Positions 3,279 to 20,245 of a stretch of 49,826 bases of DNA are shown piece after piece. Below the pieces are notes generated by a model. It worked only from the letters and a program-made list of their open reading frames with translations. It did no database searches and had not been told where the DNA came from. Within the stretch, counting starts at the first letter, position 1; each line of letters opens with the position of its first letter. Source of the stretch: a virus. The position numbers and the translations under genes were made by a program. Where the stretch lies: IMG/VR virus record IMGVR_UViG_3300025102_000052, positions 1-49,826 of that record. One strand, given 5' to 3'.

Positions 3279-3325
3279 GAGAATGTGTAAATTTGACTGT
3301 TGCCTTAAAGGCATTGAGAACTAGA

Positions 3326-3341
3326 GCCGCTGCTAAGCGGC
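3326..3341 (-). terminator. Intergenic hairpin (cassette family)
   Basis: GCCGCT-GCTA-AGCGGC, perfect 6-bp stem with 4-nt loop, upstream of the SSB-like gene. There is no strong T-run on the minus side, so its role as a terminator is uncertain. Confidence 0.55.
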
Positions 3342-3348
3342 ATTTGTT

Positions 3349-3513
3349 TTATAGATTTCGGGCAGGGTCTAAACTTTTTAGACGCGATATCTCATTAGAG
3401 ATTAATGCTGCCATATTTTCAAGAACATCTAGTCGGTCCTTGTAATGTGTATTGCACATAGGCACTACGTAGTCCACGCATGCTTGTGCAATGTCTTTTG
3501 TTGTATATCCCAT
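3349..3513 (-). CDS. Hypothetical 54-aa protein
   Basis: ATG 3513 shares a base with the TAA of the upstream small gene (TAATG junction) and the frame runs to TAA at 3349. Sequence MGYTTKDIAQACVDYVVP... Helical, with two cysteines. No family is recognised. Confidence 0.55.
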   Translation of the reverse strand: MGYTTKDIAQACVDYVVPMCNTHYKDRLDVLENMAALISNEISRLKSLDPARNL

Positions 3514-3683: not shown

Positions 3684-3731
3684 TCTGAGCAAATTTGAAG
3701 TATGGGCTGATTAACCCATGACATAAATATA

Positions 3732-3747
3732 GCCGCCAATCGGCGGC
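3732..3747 (-). terminator. Intergenic hairpin (cassette family)
   Basis: GCCGCC-AATC-GGCGGC, 6-bp stem, 4-nt loop, about 40 nt downstream of the stop of the basic protein and upstream of the next small gene. Only a short AT-rich stretch follows on the minus side. Confidence 0.55.
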
Positions 3748-10591: not shown

Positions 10592-10626
10592 TGATTGTTC
10601 ATATATAGAGAACACCTTTGGTGAAA

Positions 10627-10642
10627 GGCGCTGGTAAGCGCC
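10627..10642 (-). terminator. Intergenic hairpin (cassette family)
   Basis: GGCGCT-GGTA-AGCGCC, 6-bp stem. GAACAC lies exactly 11 nt to its left (10610-10615), the same geometry as other copies. Upstream of the DUF932 gene. Confidence 0.6.
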
Positions 10643-10732
10643 AGACACTTTTTATCAAGTTGATCTACTTATGTCTAGTATTGTCTGCTACAAAAACATT
10701 TATCTGCAAAATATGTACACGATAAATGAATT

Positions 10733-10972
10733 TTACTCATTGTTGAATTCTTGTTTAATCTCTTTTTGCAATTTGTCAGCTTTACTTCCAGGCGGATACG
10801 AGCCTCTAAGTAATAACTGGCGTATTTGGGGATCTTCTCGTACGTTCTTGGCAAAGTCAGCAGCAATGAGTTCGTAACAATACTCACTAACGCTTATATC
10901 TTTTATTGCACAGAAGCTTTTTAACAGAGCATGGCATTCGCTAGCCATGTTGAAGTTGACTCGCTTTGCCAT
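10733..10972 (-). CDS. Possible ribbon-helix-helix DNA-binding protein
   Basis: A 79-aa basic protein. Its first 45 residues fit the Arc/CopG layout: a short beta strand (KRVNFNMA), helix (SECHALLKSFCAIKD), turn, and a second helix (SVSEYCYELIAADFAK). Such proteins dimerise and insert the paired strand into the DNA major groove, often as autorepressors. The C-terminal part is charged and possibly disordered. The family match is by eye. The gene follows a 249-base non-coding stretch on the minus strand. Confidence 0.55.
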   Translation of the reverse strand: MAKRVNFNMASECHALLKSFCAIKDISVSEYCYELIAADFAKNVREDPQIRQLLLRGSYPPGSKADKLQKEIKQEFNNE

Positions 10973-11221
10973 TCACCTTTTTATAAAAAGGTATTTTAAC
11001 GGTCCATTTTTGCACAATGAGGATTTGAGTTTATGAGTAAATTATGTGTAGTTACGAAACCCCACTCATAGCAAGGGATTAAGGGCAAAAACTACTTCCA
11101 AGCTACACTGGCTACACAAGATCTCTTATATATACCTTTTTTAATACATCCTCTCTCTATATATCTATTTTTAAAATAACTATATAGGGAGATAGCGTAG
11201 CAAGTGTAGTTAAGCGTGGTT
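10973..11221. other. Non-coding stretch with inverted repeat and a promoter-like element
   Basis: No credible gene. It contains CTACACTGGCTAC (11103-11115), which is the reverse complement of GTAGCAAGTGTAG (11197-11209) at 12 of 13 positions, and the element shared with 20192-20247. Confidence 0.5.
11151..11210 (+). repeat. Promoter/leader element, copy 1 of 2
   Basis: Shares a pyrimidine run (CTCTCTAT), an identical 16-bp core AAAATAACTATATAGG (11173-11188) and the tail TAGCGTAG.AAGTGTAGT with 20192-20247, where the element sits directly in front of a gene start. Here it points into the 3' end of a gene on the other strand. Confidence 0.65.
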
Positions 11222-11872
11222 TTAATATGCGAATCGCAGTGAGTCTTTCATATCGTTCATCATTTGAGCAACAGAGTTACCTTGAGAAGCTTTGTTTTTA
11301 TTACCTGTAATAGAAATGTCATTGCTTTGATTGATTGGAGCAACAATACTATTGTCTCCACCAGTTACATTTCCAGTAGATTGACCAGGAATAACTTTTT
11401 CAATTACTTTATCTACATATTTATCTTTAAAATCTTGAGCGACAGGATTGGTAGTAGGAGTAGAGGTATTTACTTCGTTGTTGCGATCAGGTCCTTGATA
11501 ACGCTCGTCACGATCGTAGAAGTCAATTAGTTGCTTTACATTACTACCTTTGACGTTCTTAATACCTGCTTGTTTCGCGTAATAATCCCATTGTGAAGGC
11601 GGAATGCCAGCTTCAAAAAGCTCATCTTCAAATGAGCCACCTCTTTTCTTGTCCCTTCTTTCCGCAAAGTTTCTTTCTCCTCCAGAGAAACCAGAATATT
11701 TATCACCTGTATACAAATAGCGCTGAAATGCTTCATCACGCTCTTTTTCATAGAAGAGCCCATCTTCAGTTTCTGTATGCTTGGGTATGAAATTATCGTT
11801 GAATTTCTTTCTTAAGTAATCATAAGAAGTTGGCTTTCCACCAAAAGATGATCTTTTGTTATCCTTACCCAT
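11222..11872 (-). CDS. Hypothetical protein with a curlin-like repeat shared with a virion-block protein
   Basis: A 216-aa hydrophilic protein. The N-terminal two thirds are charged (FGGKPTSYDYLRKKFNDNF; PSQWDYYAKQAGIKNVKG). Around residues 170-200 lies GGDNSIVAPINQSNDISITG followed by NKNKASQGNSV. This is closely similar to a segment of the 317-aa protein at 31840 (PINQDNDISIDGNSNQVSQD). The Asn/Gln spacing recalls curlin or beta-solenoid repeats. Probably a virion or appendage protein, though it is encoded on the opposite strand from the virion block. Confidence 0.6.
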   Translation of the reverse strand: MGKDNKRSSFGGKPTSYDYLRKKFNDNFIPKHTETEDGLFYEKERDEAFQRYLYTGDKYSGFSGGERNFAERRDKKRGGSFEDELFEAGIPPSQWDYYAKQAGIKNVKGSNVKQLIDFYDRDERYQGPDRNNEVNTSTPTTNPVAQDFKDKYVDKVIEKVIPGQSTGNVTGGDNSIVAPINQSNDISITGNKNKASQGNSVAQMMNDMKDSLRFAY

Positions 11873-11922
11873 GTCATCATTAAAAGCAATGTTTATATAA
11901 TAACGATTTTGGTAGGTTTGAG

Positions 11923-12213
11923 CTAAGGCTGTTTCTTGGACTGCTCGTAATAATGAAGCTTACGATGGCAGTTAGAGCACAAACAAATACACTTCTTAAT
12001 TTCAGCCAAGGTCGCTTCAAGAGTTGAATCTCTCTTGAGCCTATTAACGGTTGCAACCTTAGTAGATGGATCTACATGATGCCAATCCATATAGGCAATA
12101 TCAAAAGCACCACAGTGCTCACAAGCTGTAAGGCGTTTATTTACTTCATCTTTAATGTGTTGACGACGTTTATCACGTGCTTGTTTACGTTTACAAGAAT
12201 CTTTGTACGGCAC
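11923..12213 (-). CDS. HNH endonuclease
   Basis: A 96-aa protein. A basic N-terminal helix (SCKRKQARDKRRQHIKDE) precedes a zinc-type HNH core: CEHCG, then WHHVDPSTK, and CLCSNCHRKLHYYE at the end. The paired CxxC motifs bind structural zinc, and the HH...CHRK.H residues form the beta-beta-alpha-metal nuclease site. The start is GTG at 12213; no in-frame ATG precedes it. It stands alone beside a tRNA gene, a usual home for free-standing homing nucleases, but it could also act in packaging or host DNA degradation. Confidence 0.85.
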   Translation of the reverse strand: MPYKDSCKRKQARDKRRQHIKDEVNKRLTACEHCGAFDIAYMDWHHVDPSTKVATVNRLKRDSTLEATLAEIKKCICLCSNCHRKLHYYEQSKKQP

Positions 12214-12252
12214 ATATATATATTGTCCAACACAATTAATTTATCTAATTAA

Positions 12253-12336
12253 TACCCAGAGCGAGACTTGAACTCGCACGACATAAATGTCAGCGGATTT
12301 TAAGTCCGATGCGTCTACCGATTCCGCCACCTGGGC
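12253..12336 (-). tRNA. trnL-UAA: tRNA-Leu(UAA)
   Basis: Reading the minus strand gives the acceptor GCCCAGG pairing with TCTGGGT (a G-T closing pair), and discriminator A73 as required for Leu. The anticodon loop is CTTAAAA with anticodon TAA on a CGGA/TCCG stem. A class II variable arm and a T arm GCGAG-TTCAAGT-CTCGC follow. The CCA end is not encoded. It may support translation of UUA codons in this AT-leaning genome. Confidence 0.95.
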
Positions 12337-12461
12337 ATAAATGGGAAGAGGGGTCACATCTAGCAACCCCTCAATTACACAGACAGAAACGACAAAAATG
12401 CCTGATACCCGATCGGGTAGGCGGTGCCGTCGTTCTTCTTCCCGCCTGTGACAAGCTTAGC
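12337..12461. other. Structured non-coding stretch upstream of the tRNA
   Basis: Holds a perfect 7-bp stem GAGGGGT/ACCCCTC with 11-nt loop (12348-12372) and a 14-bp perfect palindrome TACCCGATCGGGTA (12406-12419). These may be a processing or terminator structure and an operator; no gene is seen. Confidence 0.45.
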
Positions 12462-12689
12462 TTAGTTGCCAGCTAAATGTGATTCAAGCGTTTGAATTGC
12501 ATCACGCAAAGTAGCGCCAGCAAATCCAGATGCGCCTGAATAAAACTCAGTTGGCTCAGCATAAATATCCGTCTCAGGATTGAACGGAATACTTGGCCGT
12601 GCTTTGAGGCAATAACCCTCAGCACGTTGAAGCTTGACCAACATCTCTTCGACTGCAGGTCTAGAGATCAAAACCATTTGCGTGTCCAT
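12462..12689 (-). CDS. Hypothetical protein
   Basis: A 75-aa protein, ATG 12689 after a run of T residues. Sequence MDTQMVLISRPAVEEMLVKL..., with a central Pro-rich region (KARPSIPFNPETDIYAEP) and a C-terminal helix (RDAIQTLESHLAGN). No family is recognised. A hairpin cassette lies upstream. Confidence 0.6.
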   Translation of the reverse strand: MDTQMVLISRPAVEEMLVKLQRAEGYCLKARPSIPFNPETDIYAEPTEFYSGASGFAGATLRDAIQTLESHLAGN

Positions 12690-12721
12690 AAAAAATAGTT
12701 GAAAGGACAGTATTAACTAGA

Positions 12722-12737
12722 GGCGCTAATTAGCGCC
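12722..12737 (-). terminator. Intergenic hairpin (cassette family)
   Basis: GGCGCT-AATT-AGCGCC, 6-bp stem. It lies between the divergent starts at 12689 (minus) and 12810 (plus). Confidence 0.55.
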
Positions 12738-12748
12738 CTCAAAGTTTA

Positions 12749-12754
12749 TACAAT
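12749..12754 (+). promoter_or_regulatory. Late-type -10 box TACAAT
   Basis: TACAAT upstream of the plus-strand gene at 12810, in the same form as boxes in the virion block but with a longer distance (55 nt) to the start codon. Confidence 0.4.
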
Positions 12755-12809
12755 CGAATAGTAGATGTTGATACTTATGCGAATTAAATAAACATAGGTA
12801 TGTGTATGA

Positions 12810-13640
12810 GTGTTTTACAAACGTCCTGGAGTATTAGACTTATTGGCTGCAAATAATTTAAAATTTAAATCAGACGAATATGGTAACCCACTAATAAATC
12901 AAAGCAGAAAAGCTGGTTTGCTTTCTGTTGAGACAGTTGAGCCAGATGCTTATACTCCACAAGCGCTGTATGATGCTTTAGATGGAGCAGAACGCGCTGA
13001 AAAGGAATATATGAAAACAGGTAAAAGAGTTTTGGCTACTGACAACTCGCCTAAAACTAGTGATTACGACTTGGCCAGATTAATTGCAACTTCATTGACC
13101 AATGATTCATTGCGAATGCTAGCTGAAAGAGGTCTTCATGGAAGATATGCAGGAGATAGAGCGGCTATGGAAGCAGCTGCGCAAGATTTGTTATACAAAG
13201 GTAGTTATGGTCGTGATTTGTATACAAACACATACACTGGCAATATGCCAACACAGATGGGACATACCACTGCAAACAGCTTAGGTGGTACTGAATTGAG
13301 ACCAGAACTGGCAGCAATTAACACTAGTTTGCAAGATAGTGAAGGGAAAGACCGGCTTGAAGCAATTCGAAGAAAAAGAGTACAACTTAATGCTATGAAG
13401 GCAATTCAGGACAATCCCGAGCTGCTTGATGATCCTGACGTTAAACGTCTCATTATGGGTGATAAAACTTTTGTAAATGATTTATTATCTAAAGCAACTA
13501 ACTACGGTTTTGATGTTGCTGATAAATCTGCTGGAAGCATTACTACAGCCGATCAAGGCAAAGCCGTCAATATCTTTGCTGATAAAGTCGTTATGGAGAA
13601 AGCTATTAATGGCAACGGAAAGAACGGCAAGAAGTATTAA
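12810..13640 (+). CDS. Unrecognised plus-strand protein, possibly virion-associated
   Basis: A 276-aa protein starting at GTG 12810 (MFYKRPGVLDLLAANNLKF). Hydrophilic and mostly helical, with a Thr/Gly-rich segment in the middle (TNTYTGNMPTQMGHTTANSL) and a charged helical part after it (RLEAIRRKRVQLNAMKAIQ). No domain is recognised. It is one of only two plus-strand genes inside the minus-strand region. Its TACAAT upstream box and its composition resemble the virion-block genes, which suggests late expression. It converges on the next minus gene with a 4-nt overlap. Confidence 0.65.
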   Translation: MFYKRPGVLDLLAANNLKFKSDEYGNPLINQSRKAGLLSVETVEPDAYTPQALYDALDGAERAEKEYMKTGKRVLATDNSPKTSDYDLARLIATSLTNDSLRMLAERGLHGRYAGDRAAMEAAAQDLLYKGSYGRDLYTNTYTGNMPTQMGHTTANSLGGTELRPELAAINTSLQDSEGKDRLEAIRRKRVQLNAMKAIQDNPELLDDPDVKRLIMGDKTFVNDLLSKATNYGFDVADKSAGSITTADQGKAVNIFADKVVMEKAINGNGKNGKKY

Positions 13641-13885
13641 AGCTTGCCATCAACAATACCGTTGTGTGGTTTAGATGTCCAGCCATCGTATTCACCTTTT
13701 ATTACTGGAATATGAATGTCGTCCGTAACTAGACGGACGCCTTCTTCAGTCATGCCAGTAACCATATGTGTGCCATCAGAAAGGACTGATGTGTACAGTC
13801 CGTATTTTGATTTAACGATTGTATAGGTCCAATCAGTTTTTGTCGAAACTGGAGATCGAGAAACAGTAGATTGTGAAGATGGCAT
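13637..13885 (-). CDS. Hypothetical protein
   Basis: An 82-aa, probably all-beta protein (WTYTIVKSKYGLYTSVLSDG; HMVTGMTEEGVRLVTDDI), ATG 13885. It converges with the plus-strand gene, sharing 4 nt at the stops. No family is recognised. Confidence 0.6.
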   Translation of the reverse strand: MPSSQSTVSRSPVSTKTDWTYTIVKSKYGLYTSVLSDGTHMVTGMTEEGVRLVTDDIHIPVIKGEYDGWTSKPHNGIVDGKL

Positions 13886-13937
13886 AGATCGCTAGATATA
13901 TAAGGATGTCCATAGTTTGGAAAAAAGAAAAATCCCA

Positions 13938-13954
13938 GCCGTGGAATACACGGC
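13938..13954 (-). terminator. Rho-independent terminator after ssb
   Basis: Minus-strand stem GCCGTG/CACGGC with a 5-nt loop just past the ssb stop (13966), followed by GATTTTTCTTTTTT. Both stem and T-run are present. Confidence 0.8.
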
Positions 13955-13965
13955 CAGGAGTTTAA

Positions 13966-14448
13966 TCAGTAGAGAGCAGTCTCTTCCACCTGCTCTGTTT
14001 CGTCACTGTAGTCAGGTGTCTCATCGATGGCAGGTGTGCCAACTTGAGTAACAACTGAACCAGCAACAGCACGCACGTTGTTTTCAGCCTTAGGAATAGG
14101 TCCAAGGCCACCTTCCAAAACAGTCACTCCAATGAGGCTGATTTCGGGACGTTTGCGCATACGCACTTGGCCAGAATTGTCGGTGTAAACCTCACTGACA
14201 TTCTTGATGTGACCAGTAATAGTCACTTCACGGCCTTTGCCAAAAAAGCCTTTTTGATGAAGGCTCATAAGGCCGTTTTCGTTGTTGAATTTGTACACCA
14301 AGTCAGCACCGTCTTTGGTAGCAGTGCTGATGACAGATACAGCAAGGAACTGGCTGCCATCACGCTGTGGAACAACTTCAGCGTTGAAGATACGTCCAGT
14401 GACGGTGAGTGCGTTGAACTGAGCGTAGCGTGTTTGAGTGTTGGTCAA
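13966..14448 (-). CDS. ssb: Single-stranded DNA-binding protein
   Basis: A 160-aa OB-fold protein. It has the strands FNALTVTGRIFNAEVVPQRDG, FLAVSVISTAT and GREVTITGHIKNVSEVYTDN typical of SSB-like folds. The C-terminal third is disordered and acidic, ending DETEQVEETALY, which corresponds to the partner-binding tail of SSBs. It probably coats single-stranded DNA in phage replication. No ATG fits: the start appears to be TTG at 14448, just after a hairpin cassette. A clear terminator follows the gene. Confidence 0.72.
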   Translation of the reverse strand: MTNTQTRYAQFNALTVTGRIFNAEVVPQRDGSQFLAVSVISTATKDGADLVYKFNNENGLMSLHQKGFFGKGREVTITGHIKNVSEVYTDNSGQVRMRKRPEISLIGVTVLEGGLGPIPKAENNVRAVAGSVVTQVGTPAIDETPDYSDETEQVEETALY

Positions 14449-14482
14449 AGTGAATCTTTGATAAAGAACATGAAAAAAGAAA

Positions 14483-14498
14483 GCCGCTGTTAAGCGGC
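14483..14498 (-). terminator. Intergenic hairpin (cassette family) with T-run
   Basis: GCCGCT-GTTA-AGCGGC followed on the minus strand by TTTCTTTTTTC; a terminator-like structure between the CxxC protein and ssb. A GAACAT box lies 11 nt away on the start-codon side. Confidence 0.7.
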
Positions 14499-14505
14499 AA
14501 GGTGT

Positions 14506-14892
14506 TTAGTCGTGACCACCACAGGAAGCACACATAGGGTCATCAGGACCACATTCAATAGTCTGAAGAATGTTAATCATTGCTTGAAACTTACCAGCAT
14601 CTTTGAGCCAAGCTGCAGATGAGTCTTTATCTTCTAACTTGCAATCTTCAGCTACACGTTCGTGGAAGTGGATCATACGATCAATAATGTAAACCATCAT
14701 CAGCTTGTGAACAATCAAAGGATTGTTTGAGCTAGATGCTGCACGCTGTACCCAATGTTCAGCTTCATCAAATACATCATCAAAATGATCTTCAGTAACA
14801 ACTTTATCTGCAGCATCTGTTGGCGCATTTTTGAGGTGATCTTCAAGCGCTTCAGATGAAATGCTGTCAGGGATGTTGAATGATTGAGTCAT
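14506..14892 (-). CDS. Hypothetical protein with C-terminal CxxC
   Basis: A 128-aa helical, acidic protein. A long helical centre (NPLIVHKLMMVYIIDRMIHF) is followed by a cysteine-bearing tail with ECGPDDPMCASCGGHD, which may bind metal. No family is recognised. ATG 14892. Hairpin cassettes flank it on both sides. Confidence 0.65.
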   Translation of the reverse strand: MTQSFNIPDSISSEALEDHLKNAPTDAADKVVTEDHFDDVFDEAEHWVQRAASSSNNPLIVHKLMMVYIIDRMIHFHERVAEDCKLEDKDSSAAWLKDAGKFQAMINILQTIECGPDDPMCASCGGHD

Positions 14893-14922
14893 ATAGTACT
14901 CGAATTTACAAAAAGAATGAAA

Positions 14923-14938
14923 CCCGCTGTTTAGCGGG
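14923..14938 (-). terminator. Intergenic hairpin (cassette family)
   Basis: CCCGCT-GTTT-AGCGGG, 6-bp stem, followed on the minus strand by TTTCATTCTTTTT. Between the 69-aa gene and the CxxC protein. Confidence 0.65.
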
Positions 14939-14951
14939 ATTGGTGGTTAAC

Positions 14952-15161
14952 TCAAGCGATATTGCAGCACATATGTGCGTGGCCTGCATCGGAGATGAAG
15001 TCACCGACACGGTCTGCGAACAGAGCCGTGGAACCATCGGAGAAGATGGTGTATTCGGTTTCATCTACGAGATAGCAGAACGCATCTTCGTTCTGAGGAA
15101 CCACCTGTGATACACCTGGAATGTTGCTTGCAACAATCTGGAAGTCATAGGTGATTGCCAT
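14952..15161 (-). CDS. Hypothetical protein
   Basis: A 69-aa protein, ATG 15161, about 16 nt after the GTGTTC box of the cassette. Acidic, probably beta-rich (YLVDETEYTIFSDGSTALFA), with a Cys/His ending (GHAHMCCNIA). No family is recognised. Confidence 0.6.
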   Translation of the reverse strand: MAITYDFQIVASNIPGVSQVVPQNEDAFCYLVDETEYTIFSDGSTALFADRVGDFISDAGHAHMCCNIA

Positions 15162-15177
15162 ACAGCATTCAGAAAAA

Positions 15178-15221
15178 GAACACTAAAAAAGAAAGGCGCA
15201 GTTAAGCGCCATTGTGTGTTC
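15178..15221 (-). terminator. Complete hairpin cassette with GAACAC/GTGTTC boxes
   Basis: On the plus strand: GAACAC, 11 nt, stem GGCGC/GCGCC (15195-15210, sixth pair mismatched), 5 nt, GTGTTC. On the minus side TTTCTTTTTT follows the stem. Confidence 0.7.
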
Positions 15222-15353
15222 TCAACCGATCACGGTTGTTCTGGCAGCTTTACGGAGGTAAAGCATATCCCTCATCATCTCTTTGGTTTGACGGAGATAC
15301 TCTTCCTGAGTGCGCTTTGCTGCACGGACTTGAAGGTCTGTCATAGTGATCAT
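15222..15353 (-). CDS. Hypothetical 43-aa protein
   Basis: ATG 15353 (or 15344) to TGA 15222. Basic, helical: TDLQVRAAKRTQEEYLRQTK. It lies between two hairpin cassettes, which supports it being a gene unit. No family is recognised. Confidence 0.55.
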   Translation of the reverse strand: MITMTDLQVRAAKRTQEEYLRQTKEMMRDMLYLRKAARTTVIG

Positions 15354-15375
15354 GTAATGGACACGAAAAACTAAA

Positions 15376-15391
15376 GCCGCTGATTAGCGGC
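15376..15391 (-). terminator. Intergenic hairpin (cassette family)
   Basis: GCCGCT-GATT-AGCGGC with GGACAC 11 nt to its left; the stop codon of the upstream small gene touches its base. TTTAGTTTTTC follows on the minus strand. Confidence 0.65.
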
Positions 15392-15516
15392 TATTGCTCA
15401 TCAGAGCAAATGTCTGCGGCCTCTGTACTAGACAGAGGTGGTAGTAGGCATAGGCCTATAGATCTTGCATCTGCATTGAAGTAGAGAGCAAGGAAGAAAT
15501 AAAGAACTAGCTTCAT
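15391..15516 (-). CDS. Small putative secreted or membrane peptide
   Basis: A 41-aa frame, ATG 15516, joined to the HAD gene stop by TGATG. The N-terminus looks like a signal or membrane segment (MKLVLYFFLALYFNADA), followed by two cysteines. No family is recognised. Confidence 0.5.
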   Translation of the reverse strand: MKLVLYFFLALYFNADARSIGLCLLPPLSSTEAADICSDEQ

Positions 15517-16034
15517 CAAACCTTGACTACTACTTCTGGATGTGCATTCCAGTACTCACAGTTCTTGAGTACATGGATGCGTTTGATTCGTTGTAGGCGA
15601 GCGCCTTCTATGTTGTAGGGACTGTCATCAATGAGAGTACCCACCATCCGATAGTTTTTGCGGAGATACTTCAGCATGTGCTGCTTCGTATTACCGCTGT
15701 TATCTACGCCTGTAGATACAAGGATGAGATCAAATGGAATGTCCCACTTGCGTAGCCAGTTGAATGATTCAGTGAGCCTGTCTGATGGTCTTGCCGTACA
15801 GATGGCGATCGAATCACCCCATTGATGCATTATCCGTAGTAGATCCACGATGCGGTCATCAGGTGCAAATTCTCTGGATGCATCAAAGAATGCATCTTTG
15901 GACATACCACGGTTGTCAAAGCCATCAGGCTTTTGAGTGATAGTGTCGTCCAGATCAAATGCATGCACAATCCGCGACTTTTGCGGCTGTACACGCTGAA
16001 TACCGACAAAGTGGGATTGAGCTATACCTTTCAT
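15516..16034 (-). CDS. HAD-superfamily phosphatase, polynucleotide 3'-phosphatase-like
   Basis: A 172-aa protein. The HAD motifs are visible in order: FDLDDTIT with nucleophile Asp27 and Asp29, AICTARPSD (motif II Thr), and TLIDDSPYNIEGARL (motif IV acidic pair). The arrangement resembles the phosphatase half of T4 polynucleotide kinase and related phage enzymes, so nucleic-acid 3'-end repair is possible. A nucleotide phosphatase is an alternative. No kinase domain is attached. Start ATG 16034, after a hairpin cassette. Confidence 0.8.
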   Translation of the reverse strand: MKGIAQSHFVGIQRVQPQKSRIVHAFDLDDTITQKPDGFDNRGMSKDAFFDASREFAPDDRIVDLLRIMHQWGDSIAICTARPSDRLTESFNWLRKWDIPFDLILVSTGVDNSGNTKQHMLKYLRKNYRMVGTLIDDSPYNIEGARLQRIKRIHVLKNCEYWNAHPEVVVKV

Positions 16035-16063
16035 GTAATCTAATAAGAGTACAAGAAAGTAAA

Positions 16064-16079
16064 GGCGCTGTTAAGCGCC
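16064..16079 (-). terminator. Intergenic hairpin (cassette family)
   Basis: GGCGCT-GTTA-AGCGCC; a degenerate GAGTAC box lies 11 nt to the left. Upstream of the HAD gene. Confidence 0.6.
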
Positions 16080-16085
16080 TATTGG

Positions 16086-16253
16086 TCATACGTCAGATAG
16101 ATGTGCAAACATGAGTGCTTGAATTAGACGCAGCTCATTAATACGTAATGGTGCTTGATGCACATTAGTAGTAAATTGCGCTGTTTCGCGACAGATGACA
16201 TCGTGAATAGCTTGAACCTGTGCTTTGTCTAAAGATAGCTTTAGATCTGCCAT
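16086..16253 (-). CDS. Hypothetical 55-aa protein
   Basis: ATG 16253 to TGA 16086. Sequence MADLKLSLDKAQVQAIHDVI..., helical. Bounded by hairpin cassettes on both sides. No family is recognised. Confidence 0.55.
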   Translation of the reverse strand: MADLKLSLDKAQVQAIHDVICRETAQFTTNVHQAPLRINELRLIQALMFAHLSDV

Positions 16254-16288
16254 TGCTTGTTTCTATATATGGACCGTTTATTACCAAA

Positions 16289-16304
16289 GCCGCAGTTATG
16301 CGGC
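16289..16304 (-). terminator. Intergenic hairpin (cassette family)
   Basis: GCCGCA-GTTA-TGCGGC, 6-bp stem; compared with neighbouring copies the top pair is A-T where they have T-A, a compensated change. Confidence 0.6.
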
Positions 16305-16313
16305 AAAGGTTCT

Positions 16314-16583
16314 TTAATTCGGAGGTACGACGATCATCGTATCTTTGATCTGATCTTGAATTTGCTTTATAGCTGATGACCAGAAGTAAAAGTAATTACT
16401 TGGAAGGCGGCCTTTACGATAGGACGCTTTTCTAATGTCATCAGCAAGATTGTCAAGCATATTAAGCACATAAGTAGGATCTAGCCCTTGTTTAATACGC
16501 TGGCTTTTGTCAAGCCGTAGCTCTTCGCAGTCCATGTTGTCAAGGACTGAGTTGATGACGGCATTAACAGCTTGTTGGTTCAT
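16314..16583 (-). CDS. Hypothetical protein
   Basis: An 89-aa helical protein, ATG 16583 just after CTATATAG. Contains DNMDCEELRLDKSQRIKQG and a Tyr/Phe-rich stretch (SNYFYFWSSAIKQIQDQ). No family is recognised. Confidence 0.62.
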   Translation of the reverse strand: MNQQAVNAVINSVLDNMDCEELRLDKSQRIKQGLDPTYVLNMLDNLADDIRKASYRKGRLPSNYFYFWSSAIKQIQDQIKDTMIVVPPN

Positions 16584-16612
16584 CTATATAGATTAAAGGC
16601 ACCAAATTTAAA

Positions 16613-16628
16613 GCCGCAGCTATGCGGC
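16613..16628 (-). terminator. Intergenic hairpin whose loop holds a stop codon
   Basis: GCCGCA-GCTA-TGCGGC. The TAG stop of the upstream gene (16622-16620) spans the loop and first stem-side bases, so the hairpin overlaps the end of that gene. Confidence 0.6.
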
Positions 16629-16868
16629 CTTAGGTTGTTCTACAGCTGGCTCAAGGTCTTTCTTGAGATCAGCTACGTGAGCCTCTAAGCGTTCGATGGA
16701 AGTCTTATGACTATCGATTAGCTTATTGAGCTCATCAATCTCTGATTGAGTTTGCTCTTGTTTATAGGCGGCCAACTGTGAGTCTGAAATGACGTATACA
16801 GATGGACGCTGATGTGTGATCCAAGGATCAAAGGGATTTTGCATGTTATATAGGCTTATAAAGCTCAT
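16620..16868 (-). CDS. Hypothetical coiled-coil protein
   Basis: An 82-aa protein, starting at ATG 16868 or in-frame ATG 16844. The second half is a clear coiled coil (EIDELNKLIDSHKTSIERLE, then AHVADLKKDLEP). No family is recognised. The stop lies within a hairpin loop. Confidence 0.6.
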   Translation of the reverse strand: MSFISLYNMQNPFDPWITHQRPSVYVISDSQLAAYKQEQTQSEIDELNKLIDSHKTSIERLEAHVADLKKDLEPAVEQPKAA

Positions 16869-16960
16869 TGCTCATTTATATATACCGACCCTATTAATTT
16901 ACTGTCTAAGTATCTAATAGGGCTATCGGTATACACGGTAGTTGTTGTAGTAATAGCCGA

Positions 16961-17110
16961 TTATTCACACGCCTTCTTTAAGGCATTTAATTGAAAATCG
17001 TTCTCAATAAGCTCTAACTTACGCGCTTTCTTGAGGACCTTACGGGCCTCTTTGCGAGTAGTTGCTAATTGAGCCTTGTTTAACAACTTGAGGTATTTAC
17101 GTTCGGACAT
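16961..17110 (-). CDS. Hypothetical 49-aa basic protein
   Basis: ATG 17110 to TAA 16961. Lys/Arg-rich helix (TTRKEARKVLKKARKLELIE). May bind nucleic acid; no family is recognised. Confidence 0.5.
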   Translation of the reverse strand: MSERKYLKLLNKAQLATTRKEARKVLKKARKLELIENDFQLNALKKACE

Positions 17111-17114
17111 AGCG

Positions 17115-17204
17115 TCACTTCAGTAATTGGACAAGTAGTACCCCAACTGAGGATAGGCCCCATAGGAGTAGGAAGAGGACATACGTCTTTACTAGCTCAT
17201 TCAT
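17115..17204 (-). CDS. 29-aa single-pass membrane peptide
   Basis: ATG 17204 overlaps the stop of the upstream gene by 4 nt (ATGA). Nearly all of MNELVKTYVLFLLLWGLSSV and the following residues is one hydrophobic helix, capped by a C-terminal Lys. It may be a small membrane or lysis-related peptide; this is inference. Confidence 0.45.
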   Translation of the reverse strand: MNELVKTYVLFLLLWGLSSVGVLLVQLLK

Positions 17205-17392
17205 TTCACTTTTAAGCAACGTACATAAATGTCTAATGCGTCCACAGTCTCAATCACTTTCTCTTCTACAGCCATAGACAGTGAGATGGCAATGTCATGG
17301 CACATGTCTTCGACAGTAAGATTATAAGGTGATTGATATGGTGTAACTGTAATGGGTACAGCTAGTAACAACGGTAGTAATGTGTTCAACAT
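17201..17392 (-). CDS. Small putative exported protein
   Basis: A 63-aa protein with a hydrophobic signal-like N-terminus (MLNTLLPLLLAVPITVTPY), then a helical region with two cysteines (DMCHDIAISLSMAVEEKV...). Coupled to the downstream 29-aa membrane peptide. The pair could serve in the envelope during lysis, but no spanin or holin signature is certain. Confidence 0.55.
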   Translation of the reverse strand: MLNTLLPLLLAVPITVTPYQSPYNLTVEDMCHDIAISLSMAVEEKVIETVDALDIYVRCLKVK

Positions 17393-17443
17393 AGTGTATT
17401 CCTCTCAATTCAATTTTACCTGTTCTTAACCTGCCATTATGGA

Positions 17444-17449
17444 TACAAT
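17444..17449 (+). promoter_or_regulatory. Late-type -10 box TACAAT
   Basis: TACAAT ending 24 nt before the ATG at 17474; it fits the series of boxes before virion-block genes. Confidence 0.55.
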
Positions 17450-17473
17450 GTTGGTAAAGGTAAGGTATAGGTT

Positions 17474-17893
17474 ATGGAAAGACGTAAGGCCGGTGACTTC
17501 CTAACCGGACTACTTGATAAAGCTCGTGGAGTAGACGATGCTTACAGTAGCCGGGTTAGAGATATGTACACCCCTTTGCTTGATAAGGATGGTAAGGCTA
17601 AAGGCCTTAAAGGCACAGCCTTTGTCCTTGGATCAACCATCGGTGGTGGACAGCCGTCCTTACGGAAGATGGAAGGAGTAGAGCGCACTGAGGGTGCTGG
17701 CAAAGTTCAACAACGGATTGAGAATGTTGTTGTACCAGCCATGGAATATGGCGTACCAGCAGCCAGTGCTGTATCTAAGTACGTCCTACCAGCGGCAGGT
17801 GTGACCCTTGCTGGTAAAGGACTAATGGATCTAGCCGCAAGCTTCGGTGGTCCAGCGGACCAACAGCAGCCTGGACAGATCTTATTGACATAA
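17474..17893 (+). CDS. Unrecognised glycine/alanine-rich protein, possibly virion-associated
   Basis: A 139-aa plus-strand protein alone among minus-strand genes. The N-terminus is charged (MERRKAGDFLTGLLDKARGV). The centre has a Gly-rich stretch (STIGGGQP), and the C-terminal part a hydrophobic Ala/Gly segment (YVLPAAGVTLAGKGLMDLAA). It resembles the glycine-rich proteins of the virion block and has its own TACAAT box. No family is recognised. Confidence 0.65.
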   Translation: MERRKAGDFLTGLLDKARGVDDAYSSRVRDMYTPLLDKDGKAKGLKGTAFVLGSTIGGGQPSLRKMEGVERTEGAGKVQQRIENVVVPAMEYGVPAASAVSKYVLPAAGVTLAGKGLMDLAASFGGPADQQQPGQILLT

Positions 17894-17909
17894 GAAAACG
17901 AAAAATAAA

Positions 17910-17925
17910 GCGCCCGATAGGGCGC
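17910..17925. terminator. Hairpin between convergent genes
   Basis: GCGCCC-GATA-GGGCGC lies between the stops at 17893 (plus) and 17933 (minus). On the minus strand it is followed by TTTATTTTTCGTTTTC, so it should end minus-strand transcription. Confidence 0.7.
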
Positions 17926-17932
17926 ATAGGCG

Positions 17933-18172
17933 TCAAGCAGCGACGGGCTCGGAAGCTTTTACAGCCTTGGCAGCTTTAGCTTCTTCAGCTTTGGTGTCGA
18001 TGGCTTTGACAAGGGACTTGGCATAAGAGAAGGAACCACCGACAACCATGCTGTCGATAGAGCCGTCTGCTTGTTCAATGCCAACATCGAAGATGTCATA
18101 CTGGTCATCTTTAGTTTCAACGCGCTCAAAGAGACGAACGTTGATGTCTTGACCAGGGACTTTGAAACGCAT
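17933..18172 (-). CDS. Hypothetical protein
   Basis: A 79-aa protein from ATG 18172 (MRFKVPGQDINVRLFERVET). The longer frame to 18196 starts with TTG in the leader and is rejected. Beta-like first half, then an Ala/Lys-rich tail. No family is recognised. Confidence 0.62.
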   Translation of the reverse strand: MRFKVPGQDINVRLFERVETKDDQYDIFDVGIEQADGSIDSMVVGGSFSYAKSLVKAIDTKAEEAKAAKAVKASEPVAA

Positions 18173-18196
18173 AAGAGATAACGAATAAGTGAACAA

Positions 18197-18209
18197 GCCC
18201 TAATCGGGC
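18197..18209 (-). other. Short extra hairpin in the leader of the 79-aa gene
   Basis: GCCC-TAATC-GGGC, a second small hairpin 3' of the main cassette hairpin. Confidence 0.4.
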
Positions 18210-18222
18210 AAAGAGCGAGAAA

Positions 18223-18238
18223 GGCGCTGATAAGCGCC
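18223..18238 (-). terminator. Intergenic hairpin (cassette family)
   Basis: GGCGCT-GATA-AGCGCC, 6-bp stem, after the stop of the 107-aa gene; followed by TTTCTCGCTCTTT on the minus strand. Confidence 0.6.
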
Positions 18239-18252
18239 CTATCGCAGGATGT

Positions 18253-18576
18253 TCAATAGAGGGCTACCACAGCGTCCTCTACAGGACGTGGAGCCTGAGT
18301 GTCTTCATCCAGTGAAAGTTCCTGCTGGATAGAAGGAGCTCGCTTTACAGGTTTCGGAGTAGGGCGGTCCCAACGGCGCTTAGCCGTGTGACGCTCCAAG
18401 TCGTAACCGTAAGACGCATAGTTCACCATGCAGTCTTGAAGTTGTGTGTATGAGCGGAATACTCTGCAACGGTTAGTAGTACCACCGTATGCAATGTATA
18501 CGCCATCACACTGAGCGAATGTCCAAGTTGACAGACCTTTGGCAGTCATCTTGGTAAGAGTAGCGAGTTTACGCAT
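18253..18576 (-). CDS. Hypothetical protein
   Basis: A 107-aa protein from ATG 18576; the upstream GTG at 18603 belongs to the conserved GTGTTC leader. Basic N-terminus (MRKLATLTKMTAKGLSTWTF) and a disordered acidic tail (QQELSLDEDTQAPRPVED). A 14-bp palindrome GATACTTAAGTATC lies just before the start. No family is recognised. Confidence 0.6.
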   Translation of the reverse strand: MRKLATLTKMTAKGLSTWTFAQCDGVYIAYGGTTNRCRVFRSYTQLQDCMVNYASYGYDLERHTAKRRWDRPTPKPVKRAPSIQQELSLDEDTQAPRPVEDAVVALY

Positions 18577-18579
18577 ATA

Positions 18580-18593
18580 GATACTTAAGTATC
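18580..18593 (-). promoter_or_regulatory. 14-bp perfect palindrome next to a start codon
   Basis: GATACTTAAGTATC ends 3 nt before the ATG at 18576, covering the place of the ribosome-binding site. It could be an operator or an RNA hairpin that limits translation. Confidence 0.4.
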
Positions 18594-18597
18594 GAAA

Positions 18598-18641
18598 GAA
18601 CACGACAAAATAAAGGCGTCAATAGACGCCCTTGTGTGTTC
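18598..18641 (-). terminator. Complete hairpin cassette with GAACAC/GTGTTC boxes
   Basis: GAACAC (18598), 11 nt, GGCGTC-AATA-GACGCC (18615-18630), 5 nt, GTGTTC. Confidence 0.7.
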
Positions 18642-18867
18642 ATGCAGGTGAACCCGGCATAGCCGGTATTGGGGCATCACCCCAAGCCGCACTGCGGATG
18701 CAGTAGCTGTAGAGATGTCCCCATTCACCTTCGTAGTAATCGATAAGGCTTTCGCAAGCCGTGTAACTACGTGGAGCATATGGCATATCTTGCCAGCAGT
18801 TGCTCCAAGGATTTGAAGTGTCAGGTTCACGCTCGCGGAACCAAACACGGCACAGACCTGGAATCAT
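18640..18867 (-). CDS. Hypothetical protein
   Basis: A 75-aa protein from ATG 18867, rich in Trp, Tyr and Cys (FREREPDTSNPWSNCWQDMP; DYYEGEWGHLYSYCIRSAAW). The GTG at 18888 is part of the leader. No family is recognised. Confidence 0.58.
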   Translation of the reverse strand: MIPGLCRVWFREREPDTSNPWSNCWQDMPYAPRSYTACESLIDYYEGEWGHLYSYCIRSAAWGDAPIPAMPGSPA

Positions 18868-18882
18868 TGGAAGGTATATAAA

Positions 18883-18926
18883 GAACACGGAGAAAGAAAC
18901 CCGTCGATAGACGGGCTCTAGTGTTC
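18883..18926 (-). terminator. Complete hairpin cassette with GAACAC/GTGTTC boxes
   Basis: GAACAC (18883), 11 nt, CCCGTC-GATA-GACGGG (18900-18915), 5 nt, GTGTTC. The TGA stop of the upstream gene lies at its right end. Confidence 0.7.
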
Positions 18927-19098
18927 AGAACGGGATGTCCGCAGGATCTGTAGGCTTGACATAGTCAAGACGTACGTCTTCCCAGTCCTCAAAGGACTTG
19001 GCGTATGCCTGTGCTTCTTGATAGGTATCGAAGTACTCAGTAGTAGCTTCAGGGATACCGTCGTCACAGTAGATTTCGTAGTAAGAAACTGTGTACAT
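18925..19098 (-). CDS. Hypothetical 57-aa acidic protein
   Basis: ATG 19098 to TGA 18925: MYTVSYYEIYCDDGIPEATT..., ending PTDPADIPF. A longer frame over the same bases in another register reads low-quality Ser/Thr-rich sequence and lacks the standard cassette-to-ATG spacing, so this frame is preferred. No family is recognised. Confidence 0.6.
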   Translation of the reverse strand: MYTVSYYEIYCDDGIPEATTEYFDTYQEAQAYAKSFEDWEDVRLDYVKPTDPADIPF

Positions 19099-19112
19099 CT
19101 GAATGATGTAAA

Positions 19113-19156
19113 GAACACAGTGAACGAAACCCGCCGATAGGCGGGCTCTAGTGTTC
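19113..19156 (-). terminator. Complete hairpin cassette with GAACAC/GTGTTC boxes
   Basis: GAACAC (19113), 11 nt, CCCGCC-GATA-GGCGGG (19130-19145), 5 nt, GTGTTC. Confidence 0.7.
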
Positions 19157-19325
19157 AGTTTGAGTTGAGAAACTCATGCAGTGCTTCTTCATACTCAGCA
19201 ACTGAATCGAAGCCACGTGATTGTGCAGCTTCCAATGTGATTGGAGATCTGCGTGCAATACGGTTAACTTCGTATTCAGTCATGCCAGTTTGAGCAGCAA
19301 TCTGCGTGACATAAGGATTGAACAT
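19155..19325 (-). CDS. Hypothetical 56-aa protein
   Basis: ATG 19325, 15 nt after the cassette's GTGTTC. Helical with a helix-turn-helix-like look (TQIAAQTGMTEYEVNRIARR), but too short to call. Ends in TGA within the next cassette. Confidence 0.55.
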   Translation of the reverse strand: MFNPYVTQIAAQTGMTEYEVNRIARRSPITLEAAQSRGFDSVAEYEEALHEFLNSN

Positions 19326-19340
19326 AGTGAAATGAATTAA

Positions 19341-19384
19341 GAACACAATGAACTAAACCCTTCGATAGAAGGGCTCATGTGTTC
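19341..19384 (-). terminator. Complete hairpin cassette with GAACAC/GTGTTC boxes
   Basis: GAACAC (19341), 11 nt, CCCTTC-GATA-GAAGGG (19358-19373), 5 nt, GTGTTC. Confidence 0.7.
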
Positions 19385-19556
19385 ATTCGAACGCTTGAAC
19401 AGGGCCGAGAAAAGCACAATCAAATTCTTCAAAGACTTGATTGAGCTCTTCGGACTCACGCAAGCGAGAGATTTCTACCCAGCAACCGCCAGATTCTTCA
19501 ACATGAAGAGCGCGGTTGTAGGTGATGAACCAAGGTGAATCATCGAAACCAAACAT
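19383..19556 (-). CDS. Hypothetical 57-aa acidic protein
   Basis: ATG 19556 (MFGFDDSPWFITYNRALHVE). Acidic second half (RLRESEELNQVFEEFDCAF). First gene of the minus-strand block reading leftwards from the central non-coding region. No family is recognised. Confidence 0.58.
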   Translation of the reverse strand: MFGFDDSPWFITYNRALHVEESGGCWVEISRLRESEELNQVFEEFDCAFLGPVQAFE

Positions 19557-19574
19557 CGAATGTAATGAGATAAA

Positions 19575-19617
19575 GAACACCACCGACTAAACACGTCGAT
19601 AGACGTGAGGTGTGTTC
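19575..19617 (-). terminator. Complete hairpin cassette with GAACAC/GTGTTC boxes
   Basis: GAACAC (19575), 11 nt, CACGTC-GATA-GACGTG (19592-19607), 4 nt, GTGTTC. There is no gene upstream of it on the minus strand, so here it heads the block and need not end an upstream gene. Confidence 0.7.
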
Positions 19618-20245
19618 AGTAATTGAATTGATGAGAGATGACTACACGCATAAGTTACGCATCAGTGATGCAGTCAACGGATGATACATGTGTCATCAAT
19701 GAATACACATACGTTGCAACATCTGATCTAAACGAAAGGTAGACTTGAGTTAGACGATTGCAACTTGTGTGGAAACTCAACTGTTACAACATAAGTAACT
19801 TACATGTGAAACAACTTAAGTAAACTTATGAATTGAAACTTGAGTTTGAATCTGTTGTTAGAACAAAAGTAAATCACAAGTAAAAACTTGAGTGTATTTT
19901 TTTTGTTCCACCGGGTAGGCGGGTACAACAGGGATTAGACGTGTCAAAAATTTTGTAGCATTTTTAGGACCCTATAGAGCGGTTTTTTGTGCCTGATTAA
20001 ATGTGCCGACTCGTATCCCAGAATCTTTGGGTATATGTGGGATATTTTACGGTACATACCATATATGGCTGTGTTTGTGCTAATTAACACAAGACAGTCG
20101 GGCAGTGCAATACTGCTTGTTTGGAATCAAACTACAAACCACGCCAAATACGGCAGTTTTCTATATAACTGTTTTTAATTCTCTTGCTACGCTTCTCTCT
20201 ATCTTTTTCAAAATAACTATATAGGTATTAAGCGTAGGAAGTGTA
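19618..20245. other. Large non-coding region between the two transcription blocks
   Basis: No credible gene in about 630 bases. The left half is crowded with AACTTRAGT-like repeats (19743-19897). The right half has small palindromes: CCATATATGG (20059-20068), TTGTG-8nt-CACAA (20085-20102) and GCAGT-5nt-ACTGC (20112-20126). A near-palindrome around ACATGT lies at 19681-19696. The layout suits a replication origin or a control region for both blocks. Confidence 0.55.
19743..19897. repeat. Cluster of degenerate AACTTRAGT repeats
   Basis: ACTTGAGTT (19743), AACTTGTGT (19762), AACATAAGTAA (19788), AACTTAAGTAA (19813), AAACTTATG (19822), AAACTTGAGTT (19837), AACAAAAGTAA (19862), ACAAGTAAA (19876) and AACTTGAGT (19885) recur at short intervals. 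Iteron-like. Confidence 0.5.

Follow-up and report, generated by a model that had tools for sequence, protein, structure and literature searches.

IMG/VR virus record IMGVR_UViG_3300025102_000052, analysed here over its whole length of 49,826 nucleotides (the window), is a 49.8-kb virus whose genes fall into two halves. The early half lies on the minus strand and carries psbA, psbD, a transaldolase-like gene, a tRNA-Leu gene and numerous tiny genes, and the late half lies on the plus strand and carries genes for terminase, capsid and a sigma factor. The closest isolate found among those compared is the freshwater phage S-EIV1, whose terminase shares 55.6% identity with that of the window phage, and the close relatives of the window phage are viral metagenome contigs. 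Between the small early genes lies a family of short elements, the core of which is a hairpin, a T-rich tract and a box on the 3' side (TGTYCTTT and gene-specific variants). The phages that carry these elements are uncultured marine cyanophages, similar to S-EIV1 and unrelated to T4.

A covariance model with six base pairs, built from 31 training elements of the phage group, finds 17 matches in the window (E < 0.01), all on the gene (minus) strand of the early half between positions 3305 and 19615, and one partial match at 3723–3747 (E 0.06). The count of at least 18 hairpins given in a sequence-only reading of the window was thus about right, and the array it placed at 10610–19617 is real but begins outside that span, at 3305. 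Perfect hairpins with a stem of 6 base pairs and a loop of 4 nucleotides, followed by TTT, occur 14 times on the minus strand of positions 1–20200, compared with 0.2 expected when that region is randomised by a first-order Markov model, and are absent from the plus strand of positions 20200–49826. Among relatives, eight of ten records hold 9–27 copies per contig (covariance model, E ≤ 0.001), and contigs G021, G022 and G023 carry elements even though they were absent from the training set. The downstream gene starts 22–50 nucleotides past the stem (mostly 29–38), and most elements begin 6–14 nucleotides after the upstream stop codon.

The stem sequence is free as long as it pairs: 34 distinct stems occur in a non-redundant set of 89 elements from the phage group as a whole. 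In the 31 elements, 96.2% of cells pair, compared with 59.9% in shuffled and at most 47.8% in slid controls, and all six base pairs change on both sides. Covariation is 0.876 in this set, which was chosen for hairpins, and 0.196 (shuffled) or at most 0.165 (slid) in the controls. Because the elements were selected for being hairpins, a better test is provided by sites located by their downstream gene only. At eight sites aligned in this way across up to nine arrays, a hairpin is present in every array but one, the exception being E1 before MNAIAS, where the stem has a mismatch. Both arms vary together at six of the eight sites (before F1, F3, MKGIAQ/MNAIAS, F0, F10 and the DUF932-like gene), and the stems at the F2 and SSB sites are invariant. 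The leader element before the array also changes both arms (CACGTC/GACGTG versus CACGCC/GGCGTG). The hairpin family and its covariation are thereby confirmed, and the earlier claim that stems differ from copy to copy while pairing is kept extends to orthologous sites.

The box is the best conserved part of the element. Stem-aligned logos of 70 and 29 non-redundant elements from two phage groups have T-rich positions 1–10 and the box TGTYCTTT at positions 13–20. In both groups the box lies 11–12 nucleotides past the stem, at a distance that varies little from the stem (standard deviation 0.6–0.7 nucleotides) and more from the ATG (5–7). At orthologous sites, identity is 89–93% in the box, 61–80% in the stem and 58–70% in the T tract, and it falls to 21–42% in the spacer to the start codon and 25–47% in the 5' flank. 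Box variants stay with their gene: GTACTCTT precedes MKGIAQ/MNAIAS, GTGTCC precedes F0 and TTGTAA precedes F3. The same three variants are found in the window elements at 16043–16087 (38.8 bits), 15355–15399 (43.1 bits) and 14902–14946 (27 bits), respectively (bits are those of covariance-model matches, and all window elements are on the minus strand). Before F10, a second small hairpin, TGCCC..GGGC, stands in for the box and is kept in all seven arrays in which the site was found; in the window it belongs to the element at 18202–18246 (20.4 bits). At gene starts the box occurs only alongside a hairpin (seven of seven intergenic copies), and copies elsewhere are at chance level, so that the box as a free-standing promoter was rejected. 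Hairpin and 3' box are treated as one core because the box is fixed relative to the stem, is best conserved and is at chance level away from hairpins.

Six window elements carry an additional frame, noted in the sequence-only reading, of GAACAC 11 nucleotides to the left and GTGTTC 4–5 nucleotides to the right of the hairpin as read on the plus strand. The six occurrences, compared with 0.03 expected, are at 19575–19617 (element 19571–19615, 40.2 bits, E 5.7e-8), 19341–19384 (element 19337–19381, 36.1 bits), 19113–19156 (element 19109–19153, 44.4 bits), 18883–18926 (element 18879–18923, 46.3 bits), 18598–18641 (element 18594–18638, 42.4 bits) and 15178–15221 (element 15174–15218, 46.9 bits). 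Of this boxed geometry, the 3' box at its fixed distance is conserved, but the outer GAACAC/GTGTTC pairing is limited to a subset. The two boxes are not equivalent: the one on the start-codon side is general, and only some elements of one clade have the other, GAACAC, which is a later addition there. When all elements are considered, the two flanks of one element pair better with each other than with flanks exchanged between elements (p 0.0002, own tail start kept). This signal comes only from elements that contain ACAC (p 0.0024, or 0.09 in the control with reversed tails), and it is not significant without ACAC (p 0.18) or in phages H, I and K (p 0.13); stricter removal of relatives leaves nothing significant. 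An outer stem as a general feature was rejected, since the signal is limited to ACAC elements. The strong co-occurrence of AACAC and GTGTTC (Fisher 7e-12) is explained equally well by common descent, and an outer stem in the GAACAC subset may be proposed with modest confidence.

The genes between the elements are exchanged among phages. Those in the window, all on the minus strand, include F22 (57 amino acids, 19383–19556), F5 (56 amino acids, 19155–19325), F4 (57 amino acids, 18925–19098), F9 (75 amino acids, 18640–18867), the conserved F2 (107 amino acids, 18253–18576) and F23 (89 amino acids, 16314–16583). The order F5-F4 of the window is F4-F5 in phages D, E and G, and families F7, F12 and F14 change slot. 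The suggestion that genes are shuffled with break points at the elements was borne out by comparison between relatives: six gain, loss or replacement events could be aligned, with seven junctions, each at or beside elements. In the first, relative A has an extra gene between two element copies identical over 51 nucleotides, a pair that ranks 1 among 78 element pairs of A. The window lacks that gene, and its single copy (18594–18638) combines the left flank of one A copy with the right flank of the other. In the second, A lacks F23, and the junction lies inside an element, in or past the shared hairpin arm (window elements 16593–16636, 22.7 bits, and 16268–16312, 21.4 bits). In the third, relative B lacks F22, with a junction close to the 3' box. 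The fourth is the replacement of F4 by F14 in B, where similarity stops in one element and resumes at the 5' edge of the next, giving two junctions. The fifth is the presence of F7 between F4 and F5 in G, with a junction in the tract that runs as far as the 3' box and a flanking-element homology of 16 nucleotides (rank 4 of 91). In the sixth, G has an extra gene before MNAIAS, and the junction lies in the T tract. As the junction positions differ, crossover at a fixed point, as in integrons, does not fit, and recombination over short homology does. The homology argument is strong for the first event only and fair for the fifth.

Arbiol et al. in 2010 and Comeau et al. in 2014 reportedly dealt with the promoter early stem-loop (PeSL) elements of T4-type phages. 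Papers that cite this work present PeSLs as short signals with a stem-loop, placed between small early genes where the genome is hypervariable, and tie them to gene shuffling (PMC4503421, PMC3950731). The window elements are alike in both respects: they too are stem-loops that separate small early genes in a hypervariable region, and gene gain, loss or swap breaks at them. They differ in belonging to an S-EIV1-like rather than a T4-type phage, in the conserved box past the stem and in the outer inverted repeat of one clade. The resemblance to PeSLs drawn in the sequence-only reading is therefore a good analogy in layout and shuffling but not membership: the elements are not classed as PeSLs because a scan of the sigma-70 type found no promoter in them and the phage is not T4-type, although they may work in the same way. 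The elements are probably composite signals between cistrons, similar to PeSLs, that also supply short homology for recombination. For the upstream gene, the GC-rich hairpin with its T-rich tail would most likely provide leaky intrinsic termination or a 3'-end hairpin; the box would most likely belong to the downstream gene and aid its expression through transcription start, leader processing or translation. Such a division of labour is supported by the distribution of the box, which is found in none of nine elements that end a gene run with no gene downstream and is kept in 23 of 33 with no gene ending upstream. Elements of the latter class also score lower as terminators (median −17.5 versus 0.35, p 0.0007). 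Because each small early gene is bordered by two similar elements in the same orientation, recombination between elements could delete, insert or swap single genes while the expression signals at both ends keep working. How phages can exchange the genes of host takeover and keep them expressed is still an open question, and these elements would provide, for marine cyanophages, an aligned and countable record of how single genes were exchanged, scars included. They make it possible to test whether element homology drives exchange and what the conserved box does. As they mark gene borders, the model can also aid the detection of small early genes in metagenomic contigs.

Several observations weigh against this composite reading. 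Termination is plausible from the stable GC stem and the T tract directly after it, but the tail is of marginal strength in the clade of the window. By d'Aubenton Carafa's formula, the median terminator score (d) is near threshold in the window (−1.2) and its relatives (−0.1), compared with 17.9 in phages H, I and K, −54.8 for hairpins in late coding sequences and 27.2 for nine terminators of Syn19 and PSS2. The near-zero scores of the window clade are thus far below those of other cyanophage terminators. Hairpins do mostly separate genes, as had been claimed, but they are also kept where there is nothing to terminate: those at 19607 and 12737, in the elements 19571–19615 and 12701–12745, precede a gene with no gene of the same strand ending just upstream. 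The element classes compared for box and terminator score include orthologues, so that their counts are not independent. With respect to recombination, element pairs that flank events other than the first and fifth show no marked excess of similarity over the remaining pairs (ranks 14, 40 and 16 of 91). Break points in intergenic gaps are also expected from selection for intact genes, which could explain the junctions of these events. No RecT- or ERF-type recombinase is found in nine records.

These points bear differently on the alternatives. A true PeSL at each site, with an early promoter and a stem-loop that make each gene its own transcription unit, would agree with the layout and shuffling shared with T4-type phages, with the presence of an element for each gene and with the elements that stand alone before first genes. 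TATAAA- or GATAAA-like words 5–9 nucleotides before some lone hairpins are anecdotal support, and as −10-like sequences they were rejected, with too few independent sites and some being stop codons. The scan, which covered promoters of the sigma-70 type and no other, finds 26 consensus sites in the region compared with 40.9 expected; those listed on the gene strand fall outside the elements, and the logo has no conserved −10/−35 pair. This possibility is doubtful, though worth keeping in view. The hairpin and box might instead be a 5'-leader element that mainly protects or processes the downstream mRNA, for instance as a site for a phage or host RNase, with termination secondary. The near-constant distance to the start, the retention of the box with its downstream gene across diverged phages and the presence of hairpins with no gene ending upstream agree with such a role. 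However, the hairpin also keeps a short and regular spacing from the upstream stop, and a T-rich tail directly follows it. This explanation is rather unlikely.

Somewhat less likely still, the hairpins may be plain intrinsic terminators belonging to an early operon, with the shuffling reflecting only that gaps tolerate break points, through boundary selection and illegitimate recombination. The orientation, always with the genes, the T-rich tails, the good scores in phages H, I and K and the scant homology at several junctions are as expected of terminators. A box at a fixed distance past the stem, with higher conservation than the stem itself, is not, nor are hairpins before genes with nothing to terminate or the 51-nucleotide identical copies that flank an inserted gene, and the terminators of other cyanophages have no box. 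Integron-like shuffling, in which the folded element would be an attC-like site for a phage tyrosine recombinase, is very improbable. Cassettes of gene plus hairpin in a single orientation, with structure kept and sequence varying, recall integrons, as do the GAACAC/GTGTTC arms outside the inner stem, and two of the nine records contain a tyrosine recombinase match above cut-off, which in G002 lies some 30 kb from the array. The junctions, however, are scattered (before the 5' box, in a hairpin arm, between stem and 3' box), and the hairpin remains now with the upstream and now with the downstream gene. No recombinase match is found in the contigs of A, C and D, which are fragments; there is no R-box GTTRRRY, and the outer arms are missing from most elements of H, I and K. 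A bolder version of the composite reading, offered tentatively and rather unlikely, is that the free-sequence hairpin and gene-linked box form a new expression signal of marine S-EIV1-like cyanophages. Such a signal would differ both from classical promoters and from plain terminators, would be read by a phage factor and would serve as a platform for the reshuffling of early genes.

Comparable arrangements are known from other viruses. In the haloarchaeal myovirus HGTV-1, a conserved motif with an inverted repeat precedes most genes of one genome arm and has been proposed to regulate and shuffle them (PMC3950731). In cluster K mycobacteriophages, a box recurs where non-structural genes start (SAS/ESAS); nearly all copies point in gene direction, and about half have an upstream inverted repeat. 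SAS is the 13-bp GGGATAGGAGCCC directly upstream of the start, and the repeat sequence of 17 bp is conserved (PMC3203893). The HGTV-1 motif has a TATA-box-like part in place of the TGTYCTTT box, in a virus whose host is of a different domain. Unlike in SAS/ESAS, the stem sequence is free here, and the box differs in sequence and is tied to the stem (11–12 nucleotides past it) rather than to the ATG. To our knowledge, a box fixed past the stem is not known from PeSLs, the HGTV-1 motif or SAS/ESAS. Intrinsic terminators of cyanophages share the GC stem, 4-nucleotide loop and T-rich tail, but the window clade has a weaker tail, a box after it and elements where no gene ends. Integron cassettes (attC) share the pairing of a gene with a structured site in one orientation but differ in having a fixed crossover, a core-site consensus and a consistently present integrase.

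The covariance model finds no element in S-EIV1 (79 kb) or in the 50-kb stretch examined of each of Syn19 (T4-type) and PSS2, and no isolate carrying elements was found. A search of Rfam returned the tRNA as its sole match, and nothing in 50,697 phage records matches gene F2. A host origin of the elements was rejected: when 84,980 genomes of bacteria and archaea were scanned with a strict pattern, there were 11 scattered matches, none cyanobacterial, which were read as chance. No description of such elements in cyanophages was found in the literature, of which coverage was incomplete.

The remaining elements of the window differ in context. The element at 17890–17933 (32.7 bits) ends a gene run, has no 3' box and has the top terminator score (d = 32). 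The one at 12701–12745 (27.6 bits, d = −28.9) has no gene to terminate, lying in a divergent intergenic region formed by the plus-strand gene at 12810–13640, one of two such genes inside the minus-strand array (the other is at 17474–17893). The element at 14462–14506 (51 bits) precedes the SSB-like gene, that at 10606–10650 (32.9 bits) precedes the DUF932-like gene and sits 90 nucleotides past the previous stop, and the last is at 3305–3349 (33.9 bits). The element at 19571–19615 forms the leader before the first array gene and is conserved in six phages. Further upstream in this leader (19620–19830, minus strand), the stretch TTATGTTGTAACAGTTGAGTT is conserved in six of six aligned phages, together with other conserved words, and is a candidate early promoter or operator. 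Across all phages, the 4-nucleotide loops favour T first and C last, and TATC, TAAC and TGTC make up 48 of the loops counted. The phage-encoded sigma factor of the late half (36763–37710, plus strand) is a candidate reader of phage-specific promoters, and a gene for an HNH endonuclease (11923–12213, minus strand) adjoins the tRNA-Leu gene in the early half. Relative B encodes a tyrosine recombinase-like protein of 255 amino acids (L123, 1456–2223), and another is found in G007; these are perhaps integrases of the phage group. A diverged array region is found twice in the 106-kb contig IMGVR_UViG_3300050343_000255 (L009 and L011; 8.8–29 kb and 89.6–106 kb), as a redundancy, a recombinant or a mis-assembly.

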